Positions 172 to 60,496 of a stretch of DNA of 61,479 nucleotides are shown here, in pieces (the stretch's first letter is position 1; every line of letters begins with the position of its first letter). The DNA is from a virus. The stretch spans positions 1 to 61,479 of the IMG/VR virus record IMGVR_UViG_3300020175_000007. The stretch is one strand, 5' to 3'. The notes under the pieces are model-generated. The model had not been told where the DNA came from, did not search any database, and was given only the letters and a program-made list of their open reading frames with translations. Both the position numbers and the translations under genes were made by a program.

Positions 172-693
172 TTAATCAAATCTTGTTCTTATGTCAGTTG
201 CTTCACCAGCTACTACTTTACCATTTTGTAAAAGAACAACTCCATTAGCTGAATCACCATCAGCTTCTGAATCGTTAATAAGTTTATTTAGTTCTTCATA
301 ATACATATCTAGATTATCTTCTATGTGCTTGTGAAAAACACTTTCCCAATTATCTCCAGCTGCATCTAATTCATCTTTAAGTCCAAATTTTCTTTCAAAG
401 TGTTCGATGTCCCAATAACCGGCAATGGTATCTTTTATATATTCTTCTTTACTATCAAAATTAGTATAATCAGGACCTTCATCATTCCAATATATCATTT
501 GGTACATTCCTGGTTTAAGGTCAATTATATATTCATCACTAAATTGTTCTTCCTCAGGTGAAGCATCATGTTCAGCTCTATTTCCTATATAAAGTTCTTT
601 ATAATCATCACGGCTGAGTATTGTAGCCATATCTATATTTTCTTTTAATAAGCGACCTTCAGCTAAATATTTTCTTAAATCGAAATTATCCAT
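172..693 (-). CDS. Acidic protein with capsid-targeting-like leader
   Basis: 173 residues, not recognised beyond the leader. Residues 1-20 (MDNFDLRKYLAEGRLLKENI) match the start of the following gene, and the underlying 60 bases are nearly identical, so the leader was duplicated as DNA. L-A-E-G at 10-13 and L-L-K-E at 15-18 fit the T4 gp21 cleavage rule [LI]-x-E. The rest is acidic with several aromatic residues (Y-W-N-D-E near 70, G-Y-W-D near 93). It ends one base before the next gene upstream begins its stop codon, so it belongs to the operon that starts near 3.83 kb. Likely an internal head protein; the role of the mature part is unknown. Confidence 0.75.
   Translation of the reverse strand: MDNFDLRKYLAEGRLLKENIDMATILSRDDYKELYIGNRAEHDASPEEEQFSDEYIIDLKPGMYQMIYWNDEGPDYTNFDSKEEYIKDTIAGYWDIEHFERKFGLKDELDAAGDNWESVFHKHIEDNLDMYYEELNKLINDSEADGDSANGVVLLQNGKVVAGEATDIRTRFD
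634..693 (-). repeat. Leader-encoding repeat, copy 2
   Basis: See the copy at 101-160; identity stops where the leader ends, so the leader moves as a unit. Confidence 0.8.
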
Positions 694-694
694 T

Positions 695-2059
695 TTAGTT
701 TATTTTTATCTTTAAATCGGTTATACCTTTATGTATTCTATGAATATCTCCTTCGTTAATAAATATACGATCTCCTTTTGATAGTAACAAAGGAAGTTTA
801 TTATCTAATTGTAATTTCCAACCTTCTCCTTCTAATACTTCTATTAAACGATCTTCTTTATCTGAATGCCATACTAAACTAGTAGGATCTACATCTTTTG
901 AAAATATTCTTATATTACCTTTATTTTCATATGGGTGGGTTGATTCATTTAATTCATCATCTGCCATTACTAAATCTTGACCATAAGTATACCATCCTCT
1001 ACCATCTTCATCAGCAATAAAATATCTATTACCTGATATTTGTGTTATTGTAAATACCTCACCTGGTGTTTCTTCGTAATCAGGTGTAAGCTTTACTCTA
1101 TCACCCATTTCAAAATTTTCATTTAATTGGCTTCTTAAAAGTGGTTTCCAATTATTCATTATTTGAGCTACTCCTTTTATAAATTCAGGATTTCTTAAAT
1201 CACCTTTAAATTTACCAAATAATGCTCTTAACTCTTCTTTAAATTGAGCTACTGATCCTGTTGGTTCAAATTTTTCGGAATCTGGATCCTCTGGGTTTCT
1301 ATTAAAACCACTATAACGGGTAACTTCATTTAATTTGAATCCTCTAATTTCATCATCTGTAAGTTCTCTACCTAAAGCTTTTTCAAATGCTTTAATCATT
1401 CCTACTTCAGTACTAGCTCCTCTTTTAAGTTGTTTAATAACTCTAATTAGTTCTTTTTTTGAAAAATCATAATTAACCATAGCTTCGTCTATAGACATAT
1501 TATCAATTTCATCACGAACCCATTCTTTTTCGTTTGAACCTAATTGATCATAATCCATTCCAAATTCCATATTTGCAACATCATCATATATGTCCATTTG
1601 TTCATTTACTGAAACAAACTGTTTACCTTTTTTACTACCTCTTACTTTTTTAGCTACAGTAGCTTTACGCTCTGCTTTAGTCATTGATTGAGCTTTTTTC
1701 TTAGGTAAACATCTTGTAGTAGCTTTATCTTTTTTCATTGTACCACAATCACCAGATATATTACCTGATGTATTAATTCTTACCCAATTTTCTTTTTTAA
1801 ACCAATCGCGTAAAGATTCAGCCATCTTGTCTACATTTAATTCTTTATATCCTGAACCATATGGAGCTGATTTTCCATCATGATTAGGGGCTGTATTTTC
1901 ATTTGCTTTTTTCTTACCACTCATTTGACCTTTACATACTTTTACAGCACGACCAGATAAATAAGCAGATGATTTTTCACCAGCAGCCATTCTACGTTTA
2001 CGGTAAGCTTCACCTTTTTTACAAAGTTTTTCTTTAACTAATTTTTTAATTTTATCCAT
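695..2059 (-). CDS. Multi-domain basic protein (DUF5872-like, SH3-like and cupin-like parts)
   Basis: 454 residues from ATG at 2059. A TTG nine bases upstream would make it longer, but the ATG overlaps the stop of the previous gene (TAATG), the usual arrangement here. Residues 1-150 are very basic and include L-R-D-W-F-K-K near 83 and two cysteines near 105 and 117, as I recall for the DUF5872 family. A middle helical part follows, then an SH3/KOW-like strand-rich part (about 315-370). The C-terminal part (about 375-454) has V-W-H-S-D and I-H-R-I-H-K-G and looks like a small cupin. L-N-E occurs near 243, 312 and 370, just at these boundaries. Probably a packaged polyprotein; the domain names are tentative. 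Confidence 0.7.
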   Translation of the reverse strand: MDKIKKLVKEKLCKKGEAYRKRRMAAGEKSSAYLSGRAVKVCKGQMSGKKKANENTAPNHDGKSAPYGSGYKELNVDKMAESLRDWFKKENWVRINTSGNISGDCGTMKKDKATTRCLPKKKAQSMTKAERKATVAKKVRGSKKGKQFVSVNEQMDIYDDVANMEFGMDYDQLGSNEKEWVRDEIDNMSIDEAMVNYDFSKKELIRVIKQLKRGASTEVGMIKAFEKALGRELTDDEIRGFKLNEVTRYSGFNRNPEDPDSEKFEPTGSVAQFKEELRALFGKFKGDLRNPEFIKGVAQIMNNWKPLLRSQLNENFEMGDRVKLTPDYEETPGEVFTITQISGNRYFIADEDGRGWYTYGQDLVMADDELNESTHPYENKGNIRIFSKDVDPTSLVWHSDKEDRLIEVLEGEGWKLQLDNKLPLLLSKGDRIFINEGDIHRIHKGITDLKIKIN

Positions 2060-3828
2060 TACCAAAATGTATTCATGTTAGCACCTAAACCTAATTGCGA
2101 AGCGTATCTAGGCAAATTACAAGACCAATATCCTGCGGTTGTTCTATCTTTTTTATTTTTACAATTATGTCTTTTGGCAAATGCATTACGGGCTTGTTTA
2201 TTTTTAATTTTAGCTCTTAAACCACCTGATCCGAATGATACTTTTTTAATTTTTTTAGTTTTAGGATCTCTTACATAAACATAATATGCTTTAGATCCTC
2301 CTCTTTTAGGTTTACCTAATGGTGGATCTTTCTTTTTATTTTTATTTTCGTATAATTGTTTTACTATTGTACCTGCTCCTTTTATTTTTTTAGGTACTAA
2401 TTTATACCCAAATTCAGATACATAAGCACTATTTTTAACTCCATCTTTACTTGCTTTAGGTCCTGGTCCTAATGTAGCGCCAGGTCCTTCTTGTATTGGT
2501 GTTAATATATAATCACCATCTTTATGTTTTTTTACTTTAACTACTTTTTTAAGTAATTGAACTAATTCTTTTTTATTATATCCAAACTTTTTAACAGCTT
2601 TAATTAAAGGTTTTAAACCTGCTGCCCCACCTTCATCTTTTAAAGTTTGTCTAATTGCATTTTCAGCTTCTTTTCTTTTAGTTATATCTTCTTTTAATTC
2701 AGGAGAAGCAAATCTATCTAATTGTGTTTGATCTATGTCAATATCAAAAGGTGTTTTTTTAGATAAAATAGATGATAAGTAATCTATACTTACATCTAAA
2801 TCTTCTATATCACTTTCTCTATCTTCACCATCTCCTTCTATACTAATAAGTGTATCTAATATTTTTTGTAATATTCTATTTGATTCTTCATCTTCTTTTA
2901 ATATAGCTAAATCTTCTCTAATAGCTGATTCATTCATATCATACTGGTTAATTTGTTTTTTAACTCTGTATAATTTGTCTTCTAATTTATTTAGCATACT
3001 ACCATATCTATCAGCTATTTCTCCTCCTTCTGGCTCAGCTTCTTGCTCCATGTCTCTATATAGTTGAGCAATTCTATCTTCTAAATCTTTTTGTTCATCT
3101 CTTAAATACATAACATCTTCAAAATCCAATCCACCTCTAGATGGTTCTGGTTGTTTATCTCTTGCTGCTCTAGCTTTCATTACAACAGGATCATTCATGT
3201 TAATTTCATTAATTCCTGCATCTACAAAATCATCTGATACTGCGAATAATTGAATTTTACCATTTTCCATGTCTGTGATTTCAATGTCTTCTATATCATA
3301 TCTTGATTTTAAATTATCAGCTATTTTATTCATTTTCTGCATTGCAGCTGCAGCACCTAATCTTCTAATTTGACCTGACATTGTTTCTTTACCTAATGCT
3401 ATTACTGCTCCTTCTGGTGTAGGATAATCAATAAATACTTTTAAAAAGTTAGGATTATTTTTATCTTTAATATATCTAGGTTCGGATATTTTATCTTCTA
3501 TATCTATTTGTTCTGATAACATAGGTAAATCTAATGGTACTGATTCGCCTTCATATATTCCAAATTCACCTAAATGTGTTTTAACTAATGCTTTATCTTC
3601 TTCACATAAGTTAATTACATTACGTGAATATAATTTTCTTGCTTCTTTAATTAAGGATAAATGAGCATCTGAGCCAATACGATAAACTGATTCAAATAAA
3701 GGAATTTCTTTATCTATATGATATTGTAAACCTTCAGATAATGAAGATTTTATTTTAGTTTTGCTTTCAGTTAAAAGTGGTCCTTTTATTTCTGTTTCGC
3801 AAGTATTACATCCACATTTTTGACACAT
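2059..3828 (-). CDS. Large protein of the putative packaged-protein operon
   Basis: 589 residues. The N-terminus carries a cysteine cluster (C2, C5, C7, C10) that could bind a metal. L-T-E at 19-21 and L-S-E-G at 30-33 fit [LI]-x-E processing. Residues 35-110 contain [12 protein letters not shown] and L-G-E-F-G-I-Y-E-G, a block I associate with marine T4-like phage proteins but cannot name. A long charged coiled-coil-like middle follows. After I-Q-E-G there is a basic C-terminal domain with R-H-N-C-K and G-Y-W-S-C-N-L-P-R. An ATATTTATAA-like motif (ATATGTATAA) lies 13 bases upstream of the start, so this is probably the first gene of a late operon running to the left edge. Confidence 0.7.
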
Positions 3829-5341: not shown

Positions 5342-5796
5342 TATGCTTCTACGTCTACATCAACATCTACTTCGTCTTCGACTTCAGGTGTTGATTCGTT
5401 TTCACTTTCTTCTCCCTTAACATCTGCTCCACTATTTGTTCCATATTGAAGAATACGACCTATTGCTAATGCACAATTTTCTTCTTCATCTAAATTTAAT
5501 AGATAATATTTTTTACCTTCTACAGTAGCAATCCAACTTTTTTCAGTATACATTAAAAGGAAAGATTCCCCATTAAGTAATAAAATTCTAAATACTGTTG
5601 GTCTTGGAGAAACCCACTCTATATCTTCTAAAAAAGAATCAAATTCATGAGTTAATAAATCTACTATAACATCTTTAAGTAATGGAAACTTTGTTAACTC
5701 ATCATAAGCTACAGCAGCATCATTAGATACTGATTTTTCACTATATACTTTTTTTACAAGTACCTTTATTTTATCTCTTAGTTCTGTTGATGTCAT
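5341..5796 (-). CDS. Unknown 151-residue protein with acidic tail
   Basis: 151 residues. A helical N-terminal half is followed by strands around S-F-L-L-M-Y-T-E-K-S-W-I-A-T-V-E-G-K-K-Y and an acidic C-terminal tail with alternating V-D. It overlaps both neighbours by a few bases (TAATG at each junction), so it is translationally coupled within the 7748-3851 operon. Similar V-D/E tracts occur in the 252-residue protein of the same operon. No family recognised. Confidence 0.65.
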   Translation of the reverse strand: MTSTELRDKIKVLVKKVYSEKSVSNDAAVAYDELTKFPLLKDVIVDLLTHEFDSFLEDIEWVSPRPTVFRILLLNGESFLLMYTEKSWIATVEGKKYYLLNLDEEENCALAIGRILQYGTNSGADVKGEESENESTPEVEDEVDVDVDVEA

Positions 5797-6986
5797 TAGT
5801 CATTTTGTTTAGATAGAAATGAAGCTAAAGCCATTTGTTTAATTTTTTTTAAGGATTTACCTTTAAATTGTTTAGCATCTGATTTTTTAAAATCATCTAC
5901 ATGGTCTTCTACTGATGATTTTTTAGTAAGTTTTTCTCTAACTGCGGATTTTAATAAAGCTGATATTCCTGCTTGTGGTCTTTTTTTCAAACCTTTATCA
6001 TCGTTATCCATTTCTTTATTACCTTTTCTATCATACCCACCAACTTCATCTAAATAATTAACATCTTCTTTTTGTTTTAAAACAGTCATAATAGCAAATA
6101 TAGCATCTTGCTCTGAGTAGTCATATCTTTTAGCCATTGCTTTAATAAAAGCATTTACTTTTTGAGATACTTCTGGGTTAATTGCTTCATCTACTTTGCC
6201 TTTAGATAAATCTTTTGTTTTATCTTGTAGTATATTTGATTTAATTAAAAAATCAAGAACTTTAACATATGCATCTTGTTTTTTGCTATCTAATGTTCCT
6301 TGTTCTATTTGATTTCTAAGTGATTCTAGAGTATCTAAATCTTTTTGACCTAAACCATGACCTTCTTTTAAATCTTCTTTATCTTCTGATTTTACTAGAT
6401 CTCTTAAACTATTTAAGGCAACTCTCATTTTTGGGTTTTTTGAAAAATCCATAGTTTCTTTTTCTATCATTTGGTCATAAAAAGCAAGTATAGATTCAGC
6501 TGCTGTTTTAGCATCTTTAACTACACTATTATACTTAACCATTGTTGAAGCAGGTATTTCTACATTTTCTTCTGTTGGTGTTGGAACACCTGGTAGGAAA
6601 GTTGCTCTTCCAGATGGAGGAGTACTAGCTGCAGATTGTTCAATTTCGTCTTCTCCCCCTAAATATTTGTCTTCAGCACCATAATCAGCTCTACCTGAAA
6701 ATCCTGTGTCAACATCTATTTCTTGGCCACTTTCTGGTTCACCTAATGGGGTGGTATTAACAAATCCCTCTTTTTTAAGAAGGGATTGTTTAACTAATTC
6801 TCTGATTTTTTCTTTATTCATGCTTTCTACTTTATTTTTAGCTTGTTTAGTTGCTATACCATACATTACTTTTTCCGCATCCTTACCGTACTTTTTAACT
6901 AGTTTTCGTTTATTGGACATTAAACCTTTGATTGCTTCTTCTCGCTTTCCTAGTTCTCTTTCCGTAAGTTTACGTTCATTAAGCAT
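5796..6986 (-). CDS. Probable internal or head-associated protein
   Basis: 396 residues. The first 50 residues (M-L-N-E-R-K-L-T-E-R-E-L, then K-Y-G-K-D-A-E-K-V-M-Y-G-I-A-T-K) form a charged helical block that I know from several marine T4-like phage virion or unknown proteins. The middle is low in complexity and acidic, and the C-terminus is lysine-rich. L-N-E-R at 2-5 and L-T-E-R at 7-10 fit [LI]-x-E. It starts three bases after the leader-bearing 252-residue gene and is in the same operon. A role inside the head is inferred from the neighbours. Confidence 0.65.
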   Translation of the reverse strand: MLNERKLTERELGKREEAIKGLMSNKRKLVKKYGKDAEKVMYGIATKQAKNKVESMNKEKIRELVKQSLLKKEGFVNTTPLGEPESGQEIDVDTGFSGRADYGAEDKYLGGEDEIEQSAASTPPSGRATFLPGVPTPTEENVEIPASTMVKYNSVVKDAKTAAESILAFYDQMIEKETMDFSKNPKMRVALNSLRDLVKSEDKEDLKEGHGLGQKDLDTLESLRNQIEQGTLDSKKQDAYVKVLDFLIKSNILQDKTKDLSKGKVDEAINPEVSQKVNAFIKAMAKRYDYSEQDAIFAIMTVLKQKEDVNYLDEVGGYDRKGNKEMDNDDKGLKKRPQAGISALLKSAVREKLTKKSSVEDHVDDFKKSDAKQFKGKSLKKIKQMALASFLSKQND

Positions 6987-7763: not shown

Positions 7764-7773
7764 TTATAAATAT
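7764..7773 (-). promoter_or_regulatory. Candidate late promoter motif ATATTTATAA
   Basis: Exact 10-base motif, 15 bases before the start at 7748, in the gap after the Asn-rich gene. Confidence 0.55.
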
Positions 7774-8087
7774 TAATTTTTTCTGTTAGAATTGCCCCCT
7801 CTAGAAGTACTCTTGACTCTAATGGTATTGCTTGAGGGCCTTACTGAAGAATTATTATAATTCACTGATGGTCTATTATAATTATTACTAGGTCTAGAAT
7901 TATTATTTCTAATAATAGGTTTATTATTATTAGGTTTTACTATAATATTATTACTATTATTGTTACTATTCCATGTAGGTTTATTTGTATTAACTACTGG
8001 TTTAGTTATAATTACCGGTTTTGTATTAACTCTTGGTTTAGTTGATGCTATCATTGAAGCTTGTCCTATTTTATCTTTTATAGACAT
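7773..8087 (-). CDS. Asn/Ser/Pro-rich low-complexity protein
   Basis: 104 residues. After M-S-I-K-D-K-I-G-Q the protein is dominated by Asn, Pro, Ser, Arg and Val, with repeats such as K-P-V-V-N-T-N-K-P and N-N-N-S-R-P-S-N-N-Y-N-R-P, ending in a basic S-R-G-G-N-S-N-R-K-N tail. Flavobacterial lipoproteins often have a Tyr/Trp-rich half followed by an Asn/Arg/Ser-rich half. This gene and the one just upstream look like those two halves in different frames, separated by four bases, with a TCTAATAGA direct repeat at the junction. It may be a separate gene, a split gene or a frameshift product. No function known. Confidence 0.55.
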   Translation of the reverse strand: MSIKDKIGQASMIASTKPRVNTKPVIITKPVVNTNKPTWNSNNNSNNIIVKPNNNKPIIRNNNSRPSNNYNRPSVNYNNSSVRPSSNTIRVKSTSRGGNSNRKN

Positions 8088-9443: not shown

Positions 9444-10007
9444 TTATGTCTTTAATCCTTCTAAGTAGTCTATTACAGATTTTACATGCTCATCAACTTT
9501 ATCTTGATCTACTTTTCCTACCCATTTTTCAACATCTCCTTGTTCTGTAACAAAAGTATCATTTTCTTTTACTTTTTCTTTAATCCAAATTTTAAAATCT
9601 TTTATTTTATTATCGATTTCATTATTTTTTATTTTTCTAGTATATTCATCATAATCGCCCTTTATCATCATTTTGGTTTCCATATCAGTAACACAATCAT
9701 GGCATTTTTTATGGATTTGATAAAATGCTTTATGATTAGAATGATTCATTATTCTATTACATTCTGGGCATAATAAAGGCATTACGTGTGCTTTTTTAGC
9801 AGAATCTAACTTAGTTATATTTTGTTTTATACCTTTTTTAATAGTCCATTTACGACCATCTTCTTCCCAAATATCTCCCTCTTCATGAAATTCAGCTGCT
9901 TTTTTGTAACCTACTCCTATAGTTGTTTTATTACCATATTTACCTGTTACTAAATTTCTAAGACGTTCAACATCTTTTCTTTTAAATTCTTTTTTTAATT
10001 TTGTCAT
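9444..10007 (-). CDS. Zinc-finger protein of T4-like marine phages, unknown role
   Basis: 187 residues. N-terminal G-K-Y-G-N-K-T-T-I-G-V-G-Y-K-K and H-E-E-G-D-I-W-E-E-D-G-R-K-W-T-I-K are followed by a four-cysteine site, C-P-E-C near 80 and C-H-D-C near 102, with histidines between them. The C-terminal third is a charged helix. I remember this layout from many marine T4-like phages, always unnamed. The start overlaps the stop of the 701-residue enzyme (ATGA), so it is the third gene of the operon beginning at 12894. Nucleic acid binding is plausible from the zinc site only. Confidence 0.7.
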   Translation of the reverse strand: MTKLKKEFKRKDVERLRNLVTGKYGNKTTIGVGYKKAAEFHEEGDIWEEDGRKWTIKKGIKQNITKLDSAKKAHVMPLLCPECNRIMNHSNHKAFYQIHKKCHDCVTDMETKMMIKGDYDEYTRKIKNNEIDNKIKDFKIWIKEKVKENDTFVTEQGDVEKWVGKVDQDKVDEHVKSVIDYLEGLKT

Positions 10008-12109
10008 AAACCTAATTTTTTAAGTTGTCTAATAGTATCAGCAGTGGATGTATGTAATATACCAACTCCTCCTCGGGAAACCCACTGATCTATGTTAGAC
10101 TTTCTATCATCAATTAATATGTGATTAGGAGCTGCGTATTTTTGTTTATCTGCTGAGTAAGCCAATGTTAATTTTACACCAGGCATATTATTTCTAACCC
10201 ATAATCTTTTACCTAATCTTGAAGATTCTGATCTTGATGGTGAAGATAATAATTCAACATCATAATCCTTAATATAATTCCAATATTGTTCTCCATCAGA
10301 CATATAAGGCATTCCTACCCAAAATCCTACTCCTTTGCTATCAATTAATTCCCAAAACTTATTAATTCCAAACTTTTTTTCATAATCTCTAGGTGCTATA
10401 CCATCTGATGCCTTTTTAAATGATTCATCAAAATCTGTTATTACACCATCCATATCCGAAAATATTTTATATTCCATATCATCTTCTCTTAACGTTGCTA
10501 ATTCACGAGCATAAGCATTTAAACCAAAGGGATCTTTAACTTTTGGTTGATCTTCATCTAAAAAGCTAGCTTCAGCATTTTCTGCTTCAGGAGCATTTAT
10601 TTCATATTCTTCATTTAAACTATCAGTCCAATTTCTAAATGTCATTGTACCCCTTAAATTAGCTTCTTGTTCTAATTTGTCTAAATGGTCATCTTCTGTT
10701 GTATTTGTACTAGATATATTGCCTAATCTATCCTCTAAATATTGAATATGATGAATCATTTCATGTGCAAATGAACGTACTATATCTTTAGGATGTCGCC
10801 CCTCAGTATATAACACAATAAGTTGTTCATCTGGGCTATAATACGCTGTTTTACCGAAAAAATCGCGTGCATTTTCACTATCACCATCAACAAATCTTAC
10901 TTTAGGTAAAGGTTTAATATTCATGCCTTTATCTAACATATGTTTAGTTAACTGAACTATTTTCTTTTTAAAGTTTATATCTTTAGAATATGAAGCATTT
11001 TCATTTAAACGTTTCCAACCAGGAGAGTATTTAGGAGTATTATCATGATCACATTTATGACAAATATATAAATCATCACCACCATCTTTAATTTTCCAAG
11101 ACCAATCACAATTATCACATTCAATTTTATCACCTATAATTGCTTCATTTAATGGTTTACCTATTTCATATGGTATATCTTTTTCTTTTAAAGCATCTTC
11201 ATATTCTTCATCTGGTTCAGGTAATACTACTTTGATTATATATTTAGATAAATTTATAATATCTGTATCAATTACCTCTTCCATTTCATCATATTGACTT
11301 ATCTCTTCATAATCAGGGTTATCTGAGGTGTCTTTAAATGGTCTAATTTTATATTTAGTACGTAATTTATCTTTATCAAGAATAAAATAGGGTTGATCTC
11401 CTAACCATTCTGCAGCATATGAGTCTAAACTACGAGTTAAACTTATGGGACCCCTTAATATGTTATCATCTAAAACATCTGATAGGTATTGGGTAAAATG
11501 GTATAAAACACCAAATTGTGGACCTTCATTTAAATTTTCATTTAAATTATTAGTTATTATATTATATACTTCTACTGCTTCTTTATCTGATATTACAGAT
11601 GGTAATAATGGTGTAAGTTTTTCAATTGAAATATTTGCAGCATTTCTTGCTGCTGTACCTGAAGCCCCTGTTGTTGTAACAGTAACTGCTAAAGCAATAT
11701 TTGGATAATTATTTATAGCTTTAGTTCTAGAAGCTATATCACCAAAATCTTCTTCATCACCTTCTCTAGCTCCTATTATCCATAAAACATTAGTTTCAGG
11801 ATTATTTTTAGCATAGTTATAAACTGCTTTTATAGGGGGAGTTGATGTTGGTATTAATTCAACTTTTAATGGTAAATAATTTGCATAAATTTCCCATACA
11901 AGTAAAGATTGAGCTTGAGTTATACCACCTCTTTCTTTTTTACCTATATAAATTAATAATTCATCTATATCTGGGTGTTCTTCTAATGCTTGTTTTATAA
12001 CTTGAAAGTGGCCTTTAGTTGGGGGTTTAAATCCTCCAGCATATATAGCTACAGTTTTTTCTTCATCTTCAGGCAATAAACCTTTAAGTATTTCGTCTAC
12101 TAATTTCAT
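10004..12109 (-). CDS. Five-domain enzyme: nucleotidyltransferase, ART-like, zinc ribbon, zincin, HAD phosphatase
   Basis: 701 residues. (1) Residues 18-175: NMN/cytidylyl-transferase fold, with G-G-F-K-P-P-T-K-G-H at 25-34 and the second motif S-G-T-A-A-R near 150-155. (2) 201-296: L-Y-H-F-T ... S-L-T-R-S, tentatively ADP-ribosyltransferase-like. (3) 326-362: zinc ribbon, C331, C334, C350, C353. (4) 372-495: metallopeptidase-like, H449-E-M-I-H453. (5) 545-701: HAD / 5'-nucleotidase type, D552-M-D-G. L-N-E lies at 189-191 and 193-195, 320-322, 368-370 and 498-500, and L-R-E at 540-542: each linker has an [LI]-x-E site. This suggests processing by a prohead protease and packaging, as known for T4 Alt. 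It overlaps the kinase gene upstream by one base. Domains 1, 3, 4 and 5 are clear; domain 2 and processing are inferred. Confidence 0.8.
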   Translation of the reverse strand: MKLVDEILKGLLPEDEEKTVAIYAGGFKPPTKGHFQVIKQALEEHPDIDELLIYIGKKERGGITQAQSLLVWEIYANYLPLKVELIPTSTPPIKAVYNYAKNNPETNVLWIIGAREGDEEDFGDIASRTKAINNYPNIALAVTVTTTGASGTAARNAANISIEKLTPLLPSVISDKEAVEVYNIITNNLNENLNEGPQFGVLYHFTQYLSDVLDDNILRGPISLTRSLDSYAAEWLGDQPYFILDKDKLRTKYKIRPFKDTSDNPDYEEISQYDEMEEVIDTDIINLSKYIIKVVLPEPDEEYEDALKEKDIPYEIGKPLNEAIIGDKIECDNCDWSWKIKDGGDDLYICHKCDHDNTPKYSPGWKRLNENASYSKDINFKKKIVQLTKHMLDKGMNIKPLPKVRFVDGDSENARDFFGKTAYYSPDEQLIVLYTEGRHPKDIVRSFAHEMIHHIQYLEDRLGNISSTNTTEDDHLDKLEQEANLRGTMTFRNWTDSLNEEYEINAPEAENAEASFLDEDQPKVKDPFGLNAYARELATLREDDMEYKIFSDMDGVITDFDESFKKASDGIAPRDYEKKFGINKFWELIDSKGVGFWVGMPYMSDGEQYWNYIKDYDVELLSSPSRSESSRLGKRLWVRNNMPGVKLTLAYSADKQKYAAPNHILIDDRKSNIDQWVSRGGVGILHTSTADTIRQLKKLGL

Positions 12110-12894
12110 TAAATTAAAAATTGTCTAAGTTTTCCTTGTGCTTCTTCTTTAGAAACTGAATTATCAATTATATTTGCTACTGCTTCATCTGAAAGTAAAG
12201 CTGTAATTTCTTTATTTGCCTTTTCTTTTTGTTTAGCTGAATATGCTGCTCTAGCTGGTGATTTAGGTTTAGTATCTTTAGGTGAATAAGGTTTTAAATA
12301 TTTATCTACTATTGCATCTAATGATCCTAATTTTTCATCTTCTAAAGTATTAGAAACAGAAACAAAATTTTCACCAAAAGCATTTTTATATTCATCATAA
12401 TTTTTAGTTACACTACCCCAAGTACGTAATACAATAGCAGGTGCTAAACTTCTATCTTCACCATCCGATTTTTCAAACCTATCTTGGTTTTGTTTTAATG
12501 AACGTTCTAAATCAGTATAAACATAAAGCATAAATACTTCATATCCTGCTTCTTCTAATTCATCTTTTAATTTCATTGTTTGTTTAGATGATGAAGCTGT
12601 TCCATCTAATATAAATGATTCTTTACCTTCAATTGTAGTAGCTATATCACCTTTAAATTGTTTATTAGCATCGGCCATTGCTTTAGCTTGTTTACTTCTT
12701 TCTTCAGGTGTTGCATTTTTTAAATCTAATGAAACATTTGCTTGTTTAAGCATATCAATGTAGATATTATCAATATTCATTATTTTTAAACCTCCTAAAT
12801 TTAAACCTTTTAAGACATATCCTTTACCTGCACCTGGTGCTCCTGCTAGTATAATAGCTTTAGGGCTACCCTTTATTTCGTTAATTAATTCCAT
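12109..12894 (-). CDS. P-loop kinase, zeta-toxin / adenylate-kinase-like
   Basis: 261 residues. The Walker A motif is G-A-P-G-A-G-K-G at 18-25 after a strand (A-I-I-L-A). F-I-L-D-G-T-A and the Asp/Arg pairs in the following helices (T-D-L-E-R-S, Q-D-R-F-E) fit zeta-type or small-molecule kinases, common as unnamed proteins in T4-like phages. The last 55 residues (K-P-K-S-P-A-R-A-A-Y and on) look like a separate helical tail. A candidate late motif lies 16 bases upstream. It heads an operon with the five-domain enzyme and the zinc-finger protein. The substrate is unknown. Confidence 0.75.
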   Translation of the reverse strand: MELINEIKGSPKAIILAGAPGAGKGYVLKGLNLGGLKIMNIDNIYIDMLKQANVSLDLKNATPEERSKQAKAMADANKQFKGDIATTIEGKESFILDGTASSSKQTMKLKDELEEAGYEVFMLYVYTDLERSLKQNQDRFEKSDGEDRSLAPAIVLRTWGSVTKNYDEYKNAFGENFVSVSNTLEDEKLGSLDAIVDKYLKPYSPKDTKPKSPARAAYSAKQKEKANKEITALLSDEAVANIIDNSVSKEEAQGKLRQFLI

Positions 12895-13583: not shown

Positions 13584-14351
13584 TTATAATCCAAATCTTG
13601 ATTTTTGTGCGTTAAAATTTTGTGTTACTTCTGCTGCTGTTAGGGCTTTATTATATATATATAAATTCCCCAAATCACCCTTGAAACTTTGTACATATTG
13701 ATAGGTATTAGTTCCTGTAGAACGTCCAAATGTGTTAGGTATAAAATACTCAGAATCTCCACCAGTTCCATTTGACATATAGCCAGTATAAAATAATTCA
13801 CTATCCCTATACCATCTGACAGGGTGGTTGGTTTCATTATTAGCAAATACTAAGGTCAAATTAAACCATTCATCTAAAGTATGTCCCCCATCTGCATTGT
13901 TACCACCACCTCCAAAACTATAACCATTTTGTGTTGTAGCCTCTGTTCTCCAATAACCACCATTATTTATGTTTGATGATCTGTATTCTAAATGATTTAT
14001 TGTTGTACCACCAACAAATATACCATGGCCATTTGCTTGATTACCAGTAAATCTCATCCATACAGAATAAGTAACACCATTTGGTTTAGTTGATGCAAGT
14101 GTAGTAGTAGCAGTGTTATTTAAAGTAATATGTTCACCAACAGGAGATGAAGTTCTTGCACCATTACCAGCAAATGACATATAACCGTTGTTGTTCCATG
14201 TGACCTCGTCTTCCCCAGCCCCCATGTTACTATTATAGCCATTCTCACTTAAATCAAACCAAGTAGTTCCTGTACCTGGGTATGATCTTTTAGAGGCAGC
14301 ATCCATTGCAAGTACTAATTGATCTGTTACTATGTGTGGTCCTGTATACAT
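13584..14351 (-). CDS. LamG / concanavalin-like tail protein
   Basis: 255 residues. It starts M-Y-T-G-P-H-I-V-T-D-Q-L-V-L-A-M-D-A-A and S-Y-P-G-T-G-T-T-W-F-D-L-S, the opening typical of phage LamG-domain tail proteins, and ends in R-F-G-L. A jelly-roll sugar-binding fold is expected (W-M-R-F-T-G, W-F-N-L-T-L-V, S-F-K-G-D-L-G-N-L-Y-I-Y-N). It is a paralogue of the next two LamG genes upstream (14351-15121 and 15656-16381). Likely a receptor-binding or decorating lectin of the tail. The start overlaps the neighbouring stop. Confidence 0.8.
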   Translation of the reverse strand: MYTGPHIVTDQLVLAMDAASKRSYPGTGTTWFDLSENGYNSNMGAGEDEVTWNNNGYMSFAGNGARTSSPVGEHITLNNTATTTLASTKPNGVTYSVWMRFTGNQANGHGIFVGGTTINHLEYRSSNINNGGYWRTEATTQNGYSFGGGGNNADGGHTLDEWFNLTLVFANNETNHPVRWYRDSELFYTGYMSNGTGGDSEYFIPNTFGRSTGTNTYQYVQSFKGDLGNLYIYNKALTAAEVTQNFNAQKSRFGL

Positions 14352-15121
14352 TATAGTCCGAATCTGTTTTTTAGTGCATTATAGTTTTGTTGTAATTCTG
14401 TTGGTGATAGAACTCTATTATAAATTTTAGTTAAACTTCTATCTCCATAATGATACCACCCATACAAAGTTCCAATAGTTGCTCCACTCCCATCATATAA
14501 AGAATTTGTTAAAGAAGAAATGTCACCTGTATCTTGAAGTATTCCATTTATATGATTTCTTATTTCTCCATTATCTCTATCCCAAATAATTTGTCTACAC
14601 TGCCATTTATTTAATATTGATAAATTTGTATCTACAGTTAAATAATCATTAACTTCATATCCAGTACCTCCACCATCAGATGCCCCAACTCTTAATGTAC
14701 CCATACCCATAGAATTACCATGATTCCAATCAAAACCTACAGCACCTGTTCCATAAGCTGGGGATGAAAAAACTGAACCTGCTGGGGTTTGAGGATAATC
14801 TAATCCCTTTATATTTATCCATTCTTCTATAGTCCATCCTCCACTAGTAACATTTACTATAGCAGCTAAATCTGTTGAAGCATTATAAGTAAAAGCTAAT
14901 TTATAAGTTCCACCTAAATACCCACTATCATAAGTACTAGTAAAAACTGATGTAGAACCACTTATTCCTGCTTCAGCTATAGTACCATTTGTTTGAGTAA
15001 TAGTTGTATTACTACCTATTAAATCATTAATAGAAGTACCTGATCCCGGGTATGATTTAGGATTAGCAGGATCCCAACATAAAGCTAATCCATCTGTTAT
15101 TACGTGTGGTCCTGCATACAT
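14351..15121 (-). CDS. LamG / concanavalin-like tail protein, paralogue 2
   Basis: 256 residues, starting M-Y-A-G-P-H-V-I-T-D-G-L-A-L-C-W-D-P-A-N and ending N-R-F-G-L. It has the same plan as its neighbour downstream, including G-W-T-I-E-E-W-I and the late strand T-K-I-Y-N-R-V-L-S. The sequences have diverged strongly between conserved strands, as expected for proteins that meet changing receptors. One-base overlaps on both sides (CATTA junctions) tie it to the operon starting at 16381. Confidence 0.8.
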   Translation of the reverse strand: MYAGPHVITDGLALCWDPANPKSYPGSGTSINDLIGSNTTITQTNGTIAEAGISGSTSVFTSTYDSGYLGGTYKLAFTYNASTDLAAIVNVTSGGWTIEEWINIKGLDYPQTPAGSVFSSPAYGTGAVGFDWNHGNSMGMGTLRVGASDGGGTGYEVNDYLTVDTNLSILNKWQCRQIIWDRDNGEIRNHINGILQDTGDISSLTNSLYDGSGATIGTLYGWYHYGDRSLTKIYNRVLSPTELQQNYNALKNRFGL

Positions 15122-15655: not shown

Positions 15656-16381
15656 TTAAGCTTTAATATCTAATCCAAATCTAGTTTTTAGTCCATCATA
15701 ATTTTGCTTTACTTCACCAGCAGTTAAAACTCTATTATAAACAGCAAAAGGTCCAAAATCACCATCCCAAGATACTGTATTTCCTTGGTCGTCATCTGGA
15801 GATCTCATTATTATAATATAATTAAAATTTACATCTGTGACTAAAGCAGCTGAAGTATTACTAGCAACTGAATATCCATTGTTATACATTACATAATCAG
15901 CGTCTCCACCTGATTCTGTTCCAGATTTAGTAATAACAATGTTATACCAATTACCTGTTTGTGAAATACCACCAGATACTAAATTATTACTAGATCCAGC
16001 CGTTGGTCTAAAATTTAAATCAGGTACACTATCTAAAGTTAATCTTAAATGACCATTACCAACATTCATTAAATCCCACATTCTACTTTCATTAGCTGTA
16101 GAAGTATCTCTTAATCCCCAAGCTGATACAGACCATTCTGTAGTTGCCCAATCAATATTACCCGCTGTTCTTAAAAAACGAAAATTACCACCATCGCCAG
16201 TTGATGTTATAATTTTAGGATCTCCCTCTATAGTCATTTCTGTTGGAGTAAAGGTTTGATCACTATAATTACCCATTAAATCCGCCATATTTATCCCACC
16301 TTCATTAGATTTAATATTTGCAGGATCTGCATATAAAATTAATCCATCTAATATAATATTTGGTCCTCTAAAAAATCCCAT
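15656..16381 (-). CDS. LamG / concanavalin-like tail protein, paralogue 3
   Basis: 241 residues, M-G-F-F-R-G-P-N-I-I-L-D-G-L-I-L-Y-A-D-P-A-N, ending T-R-F-G-L-D-I-K-A. Strands W-S-V-S-A-W-G-L and F-G-P-F-A-V-Y-N-R-V-L fit a LamG jelly roll. First gene of the four-gene lectin operon, with an exact ATATTTATAATAAAA motif 12 bases before the ATG, supporting late expression. Probably a tail receptor-binding lectin. Confidence 0.8.
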   Translation of the reverse strand: MGFFRGPNIILDGLILYADPANIKSNEGGINMADLMGNYSDQTFTPTEMTIEGDPKIITSTGDGGNFRFLRTAGNIDWATTEWSVSAWGLRDTSTANESRMWDLMNVGNGHLRLTLDSVPDLNFRPTAGSSNNLVSGGISQTGNWYNIVITKSGTESGGDADYVMYNNGYSVASNTSAALVTDVNFNYIIIMRSPDDDQGNTVSWDGDFGPFAVYNRVLTAGEVKQNYDGLKTRFGLDIKA

Positions 16382-60178: not shown

Positions 60179-60496
60179 ATGACAGAAGCAAAACCTCTAG
60201 GGCTTATTACATTAATTAGTGATCATTTATCACATTATATAAGTACACCTAAATTATTAGTAGTATATGGTACATCATGGTGTAAAGCTTGTGAAAAAAT
60301 TAAACCACAATTAAAAGAATTAGGTAACGACATTAATGTGGTTATTGTTGATACAGAAAAACATTTAAAATCAAATAGATTTTACCCATCAAAAATAAAA
60401 TCATATCCAACTCTAGCATATTATGAAAATGGATATTATATAGATGATATTAAAGGTTTAACAAATATAAAACAAGAAATTAACGAATTAAATTAA
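60179..60496 (+). CDS. Thioredoxin-like protein
   Basis: 105 residues. Active site W-C35-K-A-C38 after the strand L-L-V-V-Y-G-T-S, and the cis-proline S-Y-P77-T-L. This is the full small thioredoxin fold with an N-terminal helix, as found in many T4-like phages, where it may reduce ribonucleotide reductase or act in assembly. It starts the only rightward operon and has a host-type promoter almost touching its ATG. Confidence 0.85.
   Translation: MTEAKPLGLITLISDHLSHYISTPKLLVVYGTSWCKACEKIKPQLKELGNDINVVIVDTEKHLKSNRFYPSKIKSYPTLAYYENGYYIDDIKGLTNIKQEINELN

Follow-up and report, generated by a model that had tools for sequence, protein, structure and literature searches.

Candidate prohead-protease sites at the module boundaries of a phage cassette polyprotein

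The window analyzed here is the whole 61,479-nucleotide stretch of viral DNA deposited as IMG/VR record IMGVR_UViG_3300020175_000007. It contains a minus-strand gene for a protein of 701 amino acids, in which successive modules are separated by linkers that carry the tripeptide LNE or LRE. The 5′ end of this gene overlaps the stop of a zeta-toxin-type kinase gene, and the gene also overlaps the start of the next one (9444–10007). The features of the locus are listed below, with the evidence in parentheses.

12109–12894, minus strand: zeta-toxin-type kinase with leader MELINE (Zeta_toxin, E = 3.2e-18)
10004–12109, minus strand: cassette polyprotein gene (ATG start, 701 amino acids; 54 related loci in IMG/VR)
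12068–12109, minus strand: N-terminal leader, residues 1–14, MKLVDEILKGLLPE, resembling the T4 capsid-targeting sequence (ends in LPE, residues 12–14)
11540–12061, minus strand: module 1, residues 17–190, HIGH-type (PPAT/NadD-like) nucleotidyltransferase (fold and motifs)
11525–11545, minus strand: doubled site LNENLNE, residues 189–195, LNE at 189–191 and 193–195 (sequence)
11153–11524, minus strand: module 2, residues 196–319, "ART-like" by pattern (preceded by a site beside many neighbors)
11144–11152, minus strand: LNE, residues 320–322 (sequence)
11009–11143, minus strand: module 3, residues 323–367, zinc ribbon (CxxC/CxxC motif)
11000–11008, minus strand: LNE, residues 368–370 (sequence)
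10619–10999, minus strand: module 4, residues 371–497, zincin (HExxH and downstream Glu)
10610–10618, minus strand: LNE, residues 498–500 (sequence)
10484–10492, minus strand: LRE, residues 540–542 (sequence)
10007–10483, minus strand: module 5, residues 543–701, HAD of the 5′(3′)-deoxyribonucleotidase type (profile and fold)

All five linkers contain LNE or LRE, at exactly the residues given by the first-pass annotation, which had left the strand unstated; the LPE at the leader end (12–14) is additional to the sites it listed. LNE occurs four times in the flank zones of this protein, where 0.2 occurrences are expected from shuffling, and [LI]xE is present in five of the five flank zones (2.1 expected). 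The [LI]xE motif is short and is also present within the folded modules, as LEE (42), IDE (48), LPE (297), and LKE (307); a further copy, LDE (517), lies in the long last linker (499–544).

The chain had been annotated as five domains, which fared differently. The nucleotidyltransferase and the HAD were upheld by structure comparison. Residues 17–190 match the PPAT structure 6b7b (Z score 16.5, rmsd 2.6, 152 aligned residues) and contain the motifs GGFKPPTKGH and ASGTAAR, in which TKGH and SGTAAR correspond to the (H/T)xGH and S-x-T-x-x-R-like patterns. The predicted fold confirms that module 1 belongs to the HIGH-superfamily nucleotidyltransferases, of a PPAT- or NadD-like type. Module 5 matches phrog_2643 (E = 1.7e-21) and resembles the deoxyribonucleotidases 3bwv (Z score 15.0) and 4yih (Z score 14.6). 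The zinc ribbon and the zincin were recovered by their motifs, together with weak Pfam matches in relatives (M91 and DUF6782). The AHEMIHH segment and the downstream Glu of the zincin are invariant in the alignment of relatives (A5), and this module is also backed by a mostly confident region of the full-length model. That model, with a mean pLDDT of 65, was built on A5; two alignments of module fragments (A3 and A4), misaligned by MAFFT, were left out of folding. It is mostly confident at about residues 17–187, 378–498, and 545–701, and of low confidence in the leader and the last linker (499–544). BLAST matches around module 3 stop at residues 320 and 359 in shuffled relatives. The ART-like annotation of module 2 was not confirmed: an AF2 model made with 14 relatives (pLDDT 65) gave nothing usable in a Foldseek search of the PDB, and profile searches of the PDB and Pfam gave no usable match. 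An H…S-T…E pattern noted by eye is its sole ART-like trait, and the model is of low confidence. The low confidence of module 2 in the full-length model is uninformative because this module has no homologues in A5.

A scan of IMG/VR yielded 54 related loci, and module 2 alone yielded 19. As described with five module profiles, the order of the modules is permuted (NT-ZIN-ZnR-HAD, NT-ZnR-ZIN-HAD, NT-ZIN-ART-ZnR-HAD, NT-ART, and others), other modules are inserted in some relatives, and in many cases the HAD is encoded by its own ORF immediately downstream. Irrespective of the neighbor, [LIVM]xE stands at most module edges. Junctions were counted in 42 multi-module relatives, nonredundant at 80%, with composition-preserving shuffles as the expectation. 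In this comparison of homologues, a check that the annotation had suggested, [LI]xE was kept in 138 of 177 module flank zones (61 expected) and [LIVM]xE was present in 158 (81 expected); the relatives are not independent and the significance of these counts is overstated, and since the proteins share descent, the unrelated neighbors at the edges and the flat controls make a stronger argument than the z-scores. The control motifs LxD, LxK, LxN, and LxQ occurred in the flanks at expectation. [LI]NE was found 64 times in the flanks (7.2 expected) and not once in the 14,741 module-core residues of the same 42 proteins, and LNE was found 65 times across all relatives of at least 300 amino acids (14.9 expected). 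Across the full set, which also takes in single-module proteins, the module cores hold fewer [LI]xE than expected (122 against 181) and are enriched in [LI]xD. The Glu and the hydrophobic residue of the site are kept, and the middle residue drifts among Asn, Thr, Lys, Ser, Glu, Gln, and Asp.

Individual modules show the same behavior. Module 2, which has many different neighbors, is preceded by LNE, INE, ISE, VNE, or MNE followed by GP. The C terminus of the zincin reads NWTD[ST] and then LNE, LTE, or VNE when another module comes next; when the zincin ends its ORF (L007, L008, L023, and L024), SIKN or NLKN is found instead. In L002 and L035, SIKN or GLKN stands at the zincin C terminus with an MAE site further on; these six loci look like one clade. 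Some junctions of homologues have no site, for example the zinc ribbon-to-zincin junction of L007, L008, L023, and L024, and junctions in the L043 group that read TLEK or TNE. The expectation that homologues keep the sites at the boundaries is borne out at most edges and fails at some.

The leaders follow the same pattern. Aligned leaders of the relatives' polyproteins terminate in LPE, LLE, LNE, or ILE. Leaderless polyproteins also occur (L004, L005, L007, L008, L021, L023, L024, and the L042–L051 group); in L004, L005, and L021, the upstream kinase has a long leader of the MDNFDL/MKDFDY type and the polyprotein is leaderless. All 16 separate HADs of this group begin with a leader that terminates in [LIVM]xE. 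HAD relatives from six unrelated phages have no leader and start 6–10 residues before the catalytic Asp, and the HAD relative from one further unrelated phage, phiM5, is part of a longer fusion. In all 42 listed copies of the upstream kinase, some of them from overlapping records, the P-loop is preceded by a leader with [LIVM]xE at its end. Its leaders are of two exchangeable types, MISLVQLLKE and MDNFDLxKYxxE followed by GRLLKE. Many unrelated proteins encoded in this cluster share the second type, for example the following.

172–693, minus strand: small protein, leader MDNFDLRKYLAE followed by GRLLKE (same leader on many unrelated bodies)

A near-invariant form, MDNFDLxKYLAE followed by GRL, was seen on unrelated bodies at 2–160 and 172–693 of the window (minus strand), and elsewhere in L071 (16575–18015), L016, L021, L026, and L073. 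This sharing of a leader among unrelated bodies resembles the behavior of the T4 capsid-targeting sequence (PMC9026906, PMC5694885).

Three further genes of the head-side cluster are mosaics, as judged from their matches.

695–2059, minus strand: second cassette polyprotein, 454 amino acids from its ATG, three LNE
2059–3828, minus strand: third mosaic protein, 589 amino acids, fifteen [LI]xE
5796–6986, minus strand: fourth mosaic protein, 396 amino acids (750 in its relative from the related genome G002)

Parts of these proteins turn up again inside other genes or as ORFs in their own right, and [LIVM]xE lies close to the borders; a Pfam search of the other LNE-rich proteins of the window gave no family over the cut-off. 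Over all proteins of the fetched loci, [LIVM]xE is found at 343 of 764 starts of mosaic BLAST matches (174 at random positions) and at 367 of 909 ends (207 at random positions). At these boundaries, LxD, LxK, and LxN stay at the random level, and E.[LI] shows a moderate excess. In the head-side cluster of the window, [LIVM]xE occurs at 30 of 63 mosaic boundaries against 17 expected; the signal in the tail half is weak (6 of 34 against 3.4). For an out-of-sample test, the piece of 695–2059 that begins WVRINTSGN was scanned in IMG/VR. Among the best 80 of its 452 relatives, [LIVM]xE lies upstream of this WVR cassette in 55 of 58 distinct contexts (26.7 expected), either as the leader of separate proteins (MTQERIQEVIQE before Ser) or internally in polyproteins (DKMAE before Ser). 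In the same 80, VNE or VKE lies downstream of most internal copies that have a further module, and no such downstream site was found in the separate copies listed. Numbers are given for WVR only, as the list for a second cassette (FSK) has spurious partial matches. Other genes of the window include one for an Asn-rich low-complexity protein of 104 amino acids among the head-side genes (7773–8087, minus strand). Adjacent related proteins of about 250 amino acids (13584–15121 and 15656–16381, minus strand), with starts MYTGPHIVTD, MYAGPHVITD, and MGFFRGPNII, are by eye probably lectin-like adhesion proteins. A thioredoxin-like ORF (WCKACEKIKP; 60179–60496, plus strand) lies at the right end, where the gene direction reverses.

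The T4 prohead protease gp21 cuts after L/I-x-E, is processed at its own C terminus, and has a candidate site near its N terminus (PMC9026906). Eight related genomes or contigs proved to encode an S77 (T4-type) prohead protease, and gp23 was found in several of the related genomes. In the alignment of the eight proteases, an invariant Glu of the C-terminal tail lies within LNE, LQE, VKE, or MHE, and all eight also have [LIVM]xE near the N terminus. The gp23 N termini of related phages contain LLE or LFE, with VSE, VAE, or VVE near the likely maturation site. Genes for the protease and gp23 were not found in the window or in its near twin L003, both of which are fragments. In G002, the S77 protease and gp23 genes are located downstream of the polyprotein gene. 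The window is collinear with that genome as far as the left edge of the window, so the protease gene of this phage is expected beyond that edge. The core of the annotated idea, a polyprotein with a putative gp21-type site at each boundary, passed the homologue test with strong statistics and is backed by the out-of-sample test and the proteases of the related genomes. The annotated reading as a whole, with its suggestion that the enzymes may act on NAD or nucleotides, is partly supported.

Here, we propose that the 701-residue protein is quite probably a precursor of the prohead interior that is cut at every linker by the S77 protease, its enzymes being packed and delivered. The N-terminal leader, which resembles a capsid-targeting sequence, would direct the polyprotein to the core of the prohead in this marine T4-like phage; a location in the head is suggested by the gene neighborhood and the leader. 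The gp21-type S77 protease would then cut after [L/I/V/M]-x-E at the leader end and in every linker. The PPAT/NadD-type nucleotidyltransferase, the "ART-like" domain, the zinc ribbon, the zincin, and the deoxyribonucleotidase-type HAD would be released as separate mature proteins, which would be packed with the DNA and reach the host early in infection. Cleavage, packaging, injection, and targets are what we infer from the sites and the mosaic around them. Those modules that can be identified fold as enzymes and keep their motifs intact, and two of them belong to nucleotide chemistry, which makes their delivery to the host at infection likely. Since each module takes its cut sites along, a cassette could be reshuffled, transferred to another gene, or expressed as an ORF of its own behind its own leader. 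With somewhat less confidence, we favor a more general view, in which the head-maturation protease would serve as a polyprotein-processing system and the head-side genes would encode interchangeable payload cassettes, bounded by [LIVM]xE, swapped by recombination, and cut for delivery. The swaps would take a cassette from one gene to another, from a polyprotein to an ORF of its own or back, and from one leader to another.

Separate proteins that hold no zincin have leaders terminating in the [LIVM]xE motif, which also stands at edges in polyproteins without a zincin match (e.g. L080, L082, and L084), lies near both ends of the prohead proteases themselves, and fits the published gp21 specificity (PMC9026906). 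It is hence improbable that the linkers are cut, in packaging or after delivery, by the embedded zincin instead of the prohead protease, even though most of these polyproteins have a zincin module and zincins were given this role in polyvalent proteins by Iyer et al. in 2017 (PMC5512222). Fusion of leader-bearing proteins would leave [LIVM]xE just upstream of fused and separate HADs alike, as is observed, and the sites could then be uncut relics or docking elements in a chain that works whole. Such relics should decay, yet it is the middle residue that varies, and the Glu and the hydrophobic residue persist. Sites also occur downstream of modules that have none when last or separate (SIKN versus SLNE in the zincin; the WVR cassette), and [LI]xE is depleted inside the modules; we give this explanation little credence. 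Finally, gp21 cuts the T4 core proteins into multiple fragments that are mostly removed (PMC9026906), but the conservation of folded, motif-intact enzymes (nucleotidyltransferase, DxD HAD, and HExxH zincin) and the depletion of [LI]xE within them fit a disposable scaffold poorly, and a prohead core protein chopped and discarded like T4 gp22, gp67, and gp68 is very improbable.

The proposed precursor cut by the prohead protease has counterparts in known systems. T4 internal proteins have a common targeting leader, and Alt is cut at both ends (PMC9026906). As in T4 IPI, IPII, IPIII, and Alt, a short leader ending in [LI]xE is found here on unrelated bodies, and the related genomes encode the S77 protease and gp23 as T4 does. 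In contrast to the T4 internal proteins, one chain here holds several enzymes, each linker has a site, and cassettes move from gene to gene. The first-pass annotation knew of no described phage polyprotein of this kind, which has to be narrowed. Polyvalent proteins are multi-enzyme phage chains, probably packaged in the head, with ARTs and zincins, and were likened to RNA-virus polyproteins (Iyer et al. 2017, PMC5512222). As in the proteins described there, disparate enzyme domains, a zincin included, share one polypeptide with mosaic architectures; the genes lie near head genes, and polyvalent proteins are predicted to be injected. The processor proposed in that account is the zincin, whereas the motif at the boundaries here suggests processing by the prohead protease, even in chains without a zincin. 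The available parts of PMC5512222 report no prohead-protease sites between domains. The head ejection proteins of phiKZ and SPN3US are likewise processed by an S77-type protease (gp175 and gp245, respectively) that cuts after x-x-E. Within the available parts of PMC9026906 and PMC5694885, the sites described in these ejected head proteins remove propeptides, and there is no mention of a multi-enzyme chain that has a site at every boundary between domains. A literature search, with subscription papers outside its scope, found no account of multi-enzyme polyproteins cut by a prohead protease.

A cultured relative is available in the Flavobacterium phage immuto, whose QQO92100.1 (annotated as NadR-like) has nucleotidyltransferase and zincin modules with LAE, LPE, and MAE sites and whose genome also encodes an S77 protease and gp23. 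It differs in its length of 907 amino acids and in its HAD, a separate ORF with its own leader. By eye, the immuto homologue (L002, 19137–21860) begins with an extra pol-beta nucleotidyltransferase-like domain, followed by LAE before Ala and then the HIGH-type nucleotidyltransferase.

If the proposal is true, several enzymes would be freed from one chain by a head protease, and the gp21 processing of T4 internal proteins and the polyvalent proteins would merge into one modular delivery system. What is new relative to the former is the multi-cargo chain, and relative to the latter, the head protease as the implied processor. The rule offered, that cassettes end at [LIVM]xE and that separate copies have a leader with the same end, would help to find and delimit probably injected proteins of abundant phages, in which one cassette alone has 452 IMG/VR relatives. 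How polyvalent proteins are processed would thereby become directly testable in a cultured phage.
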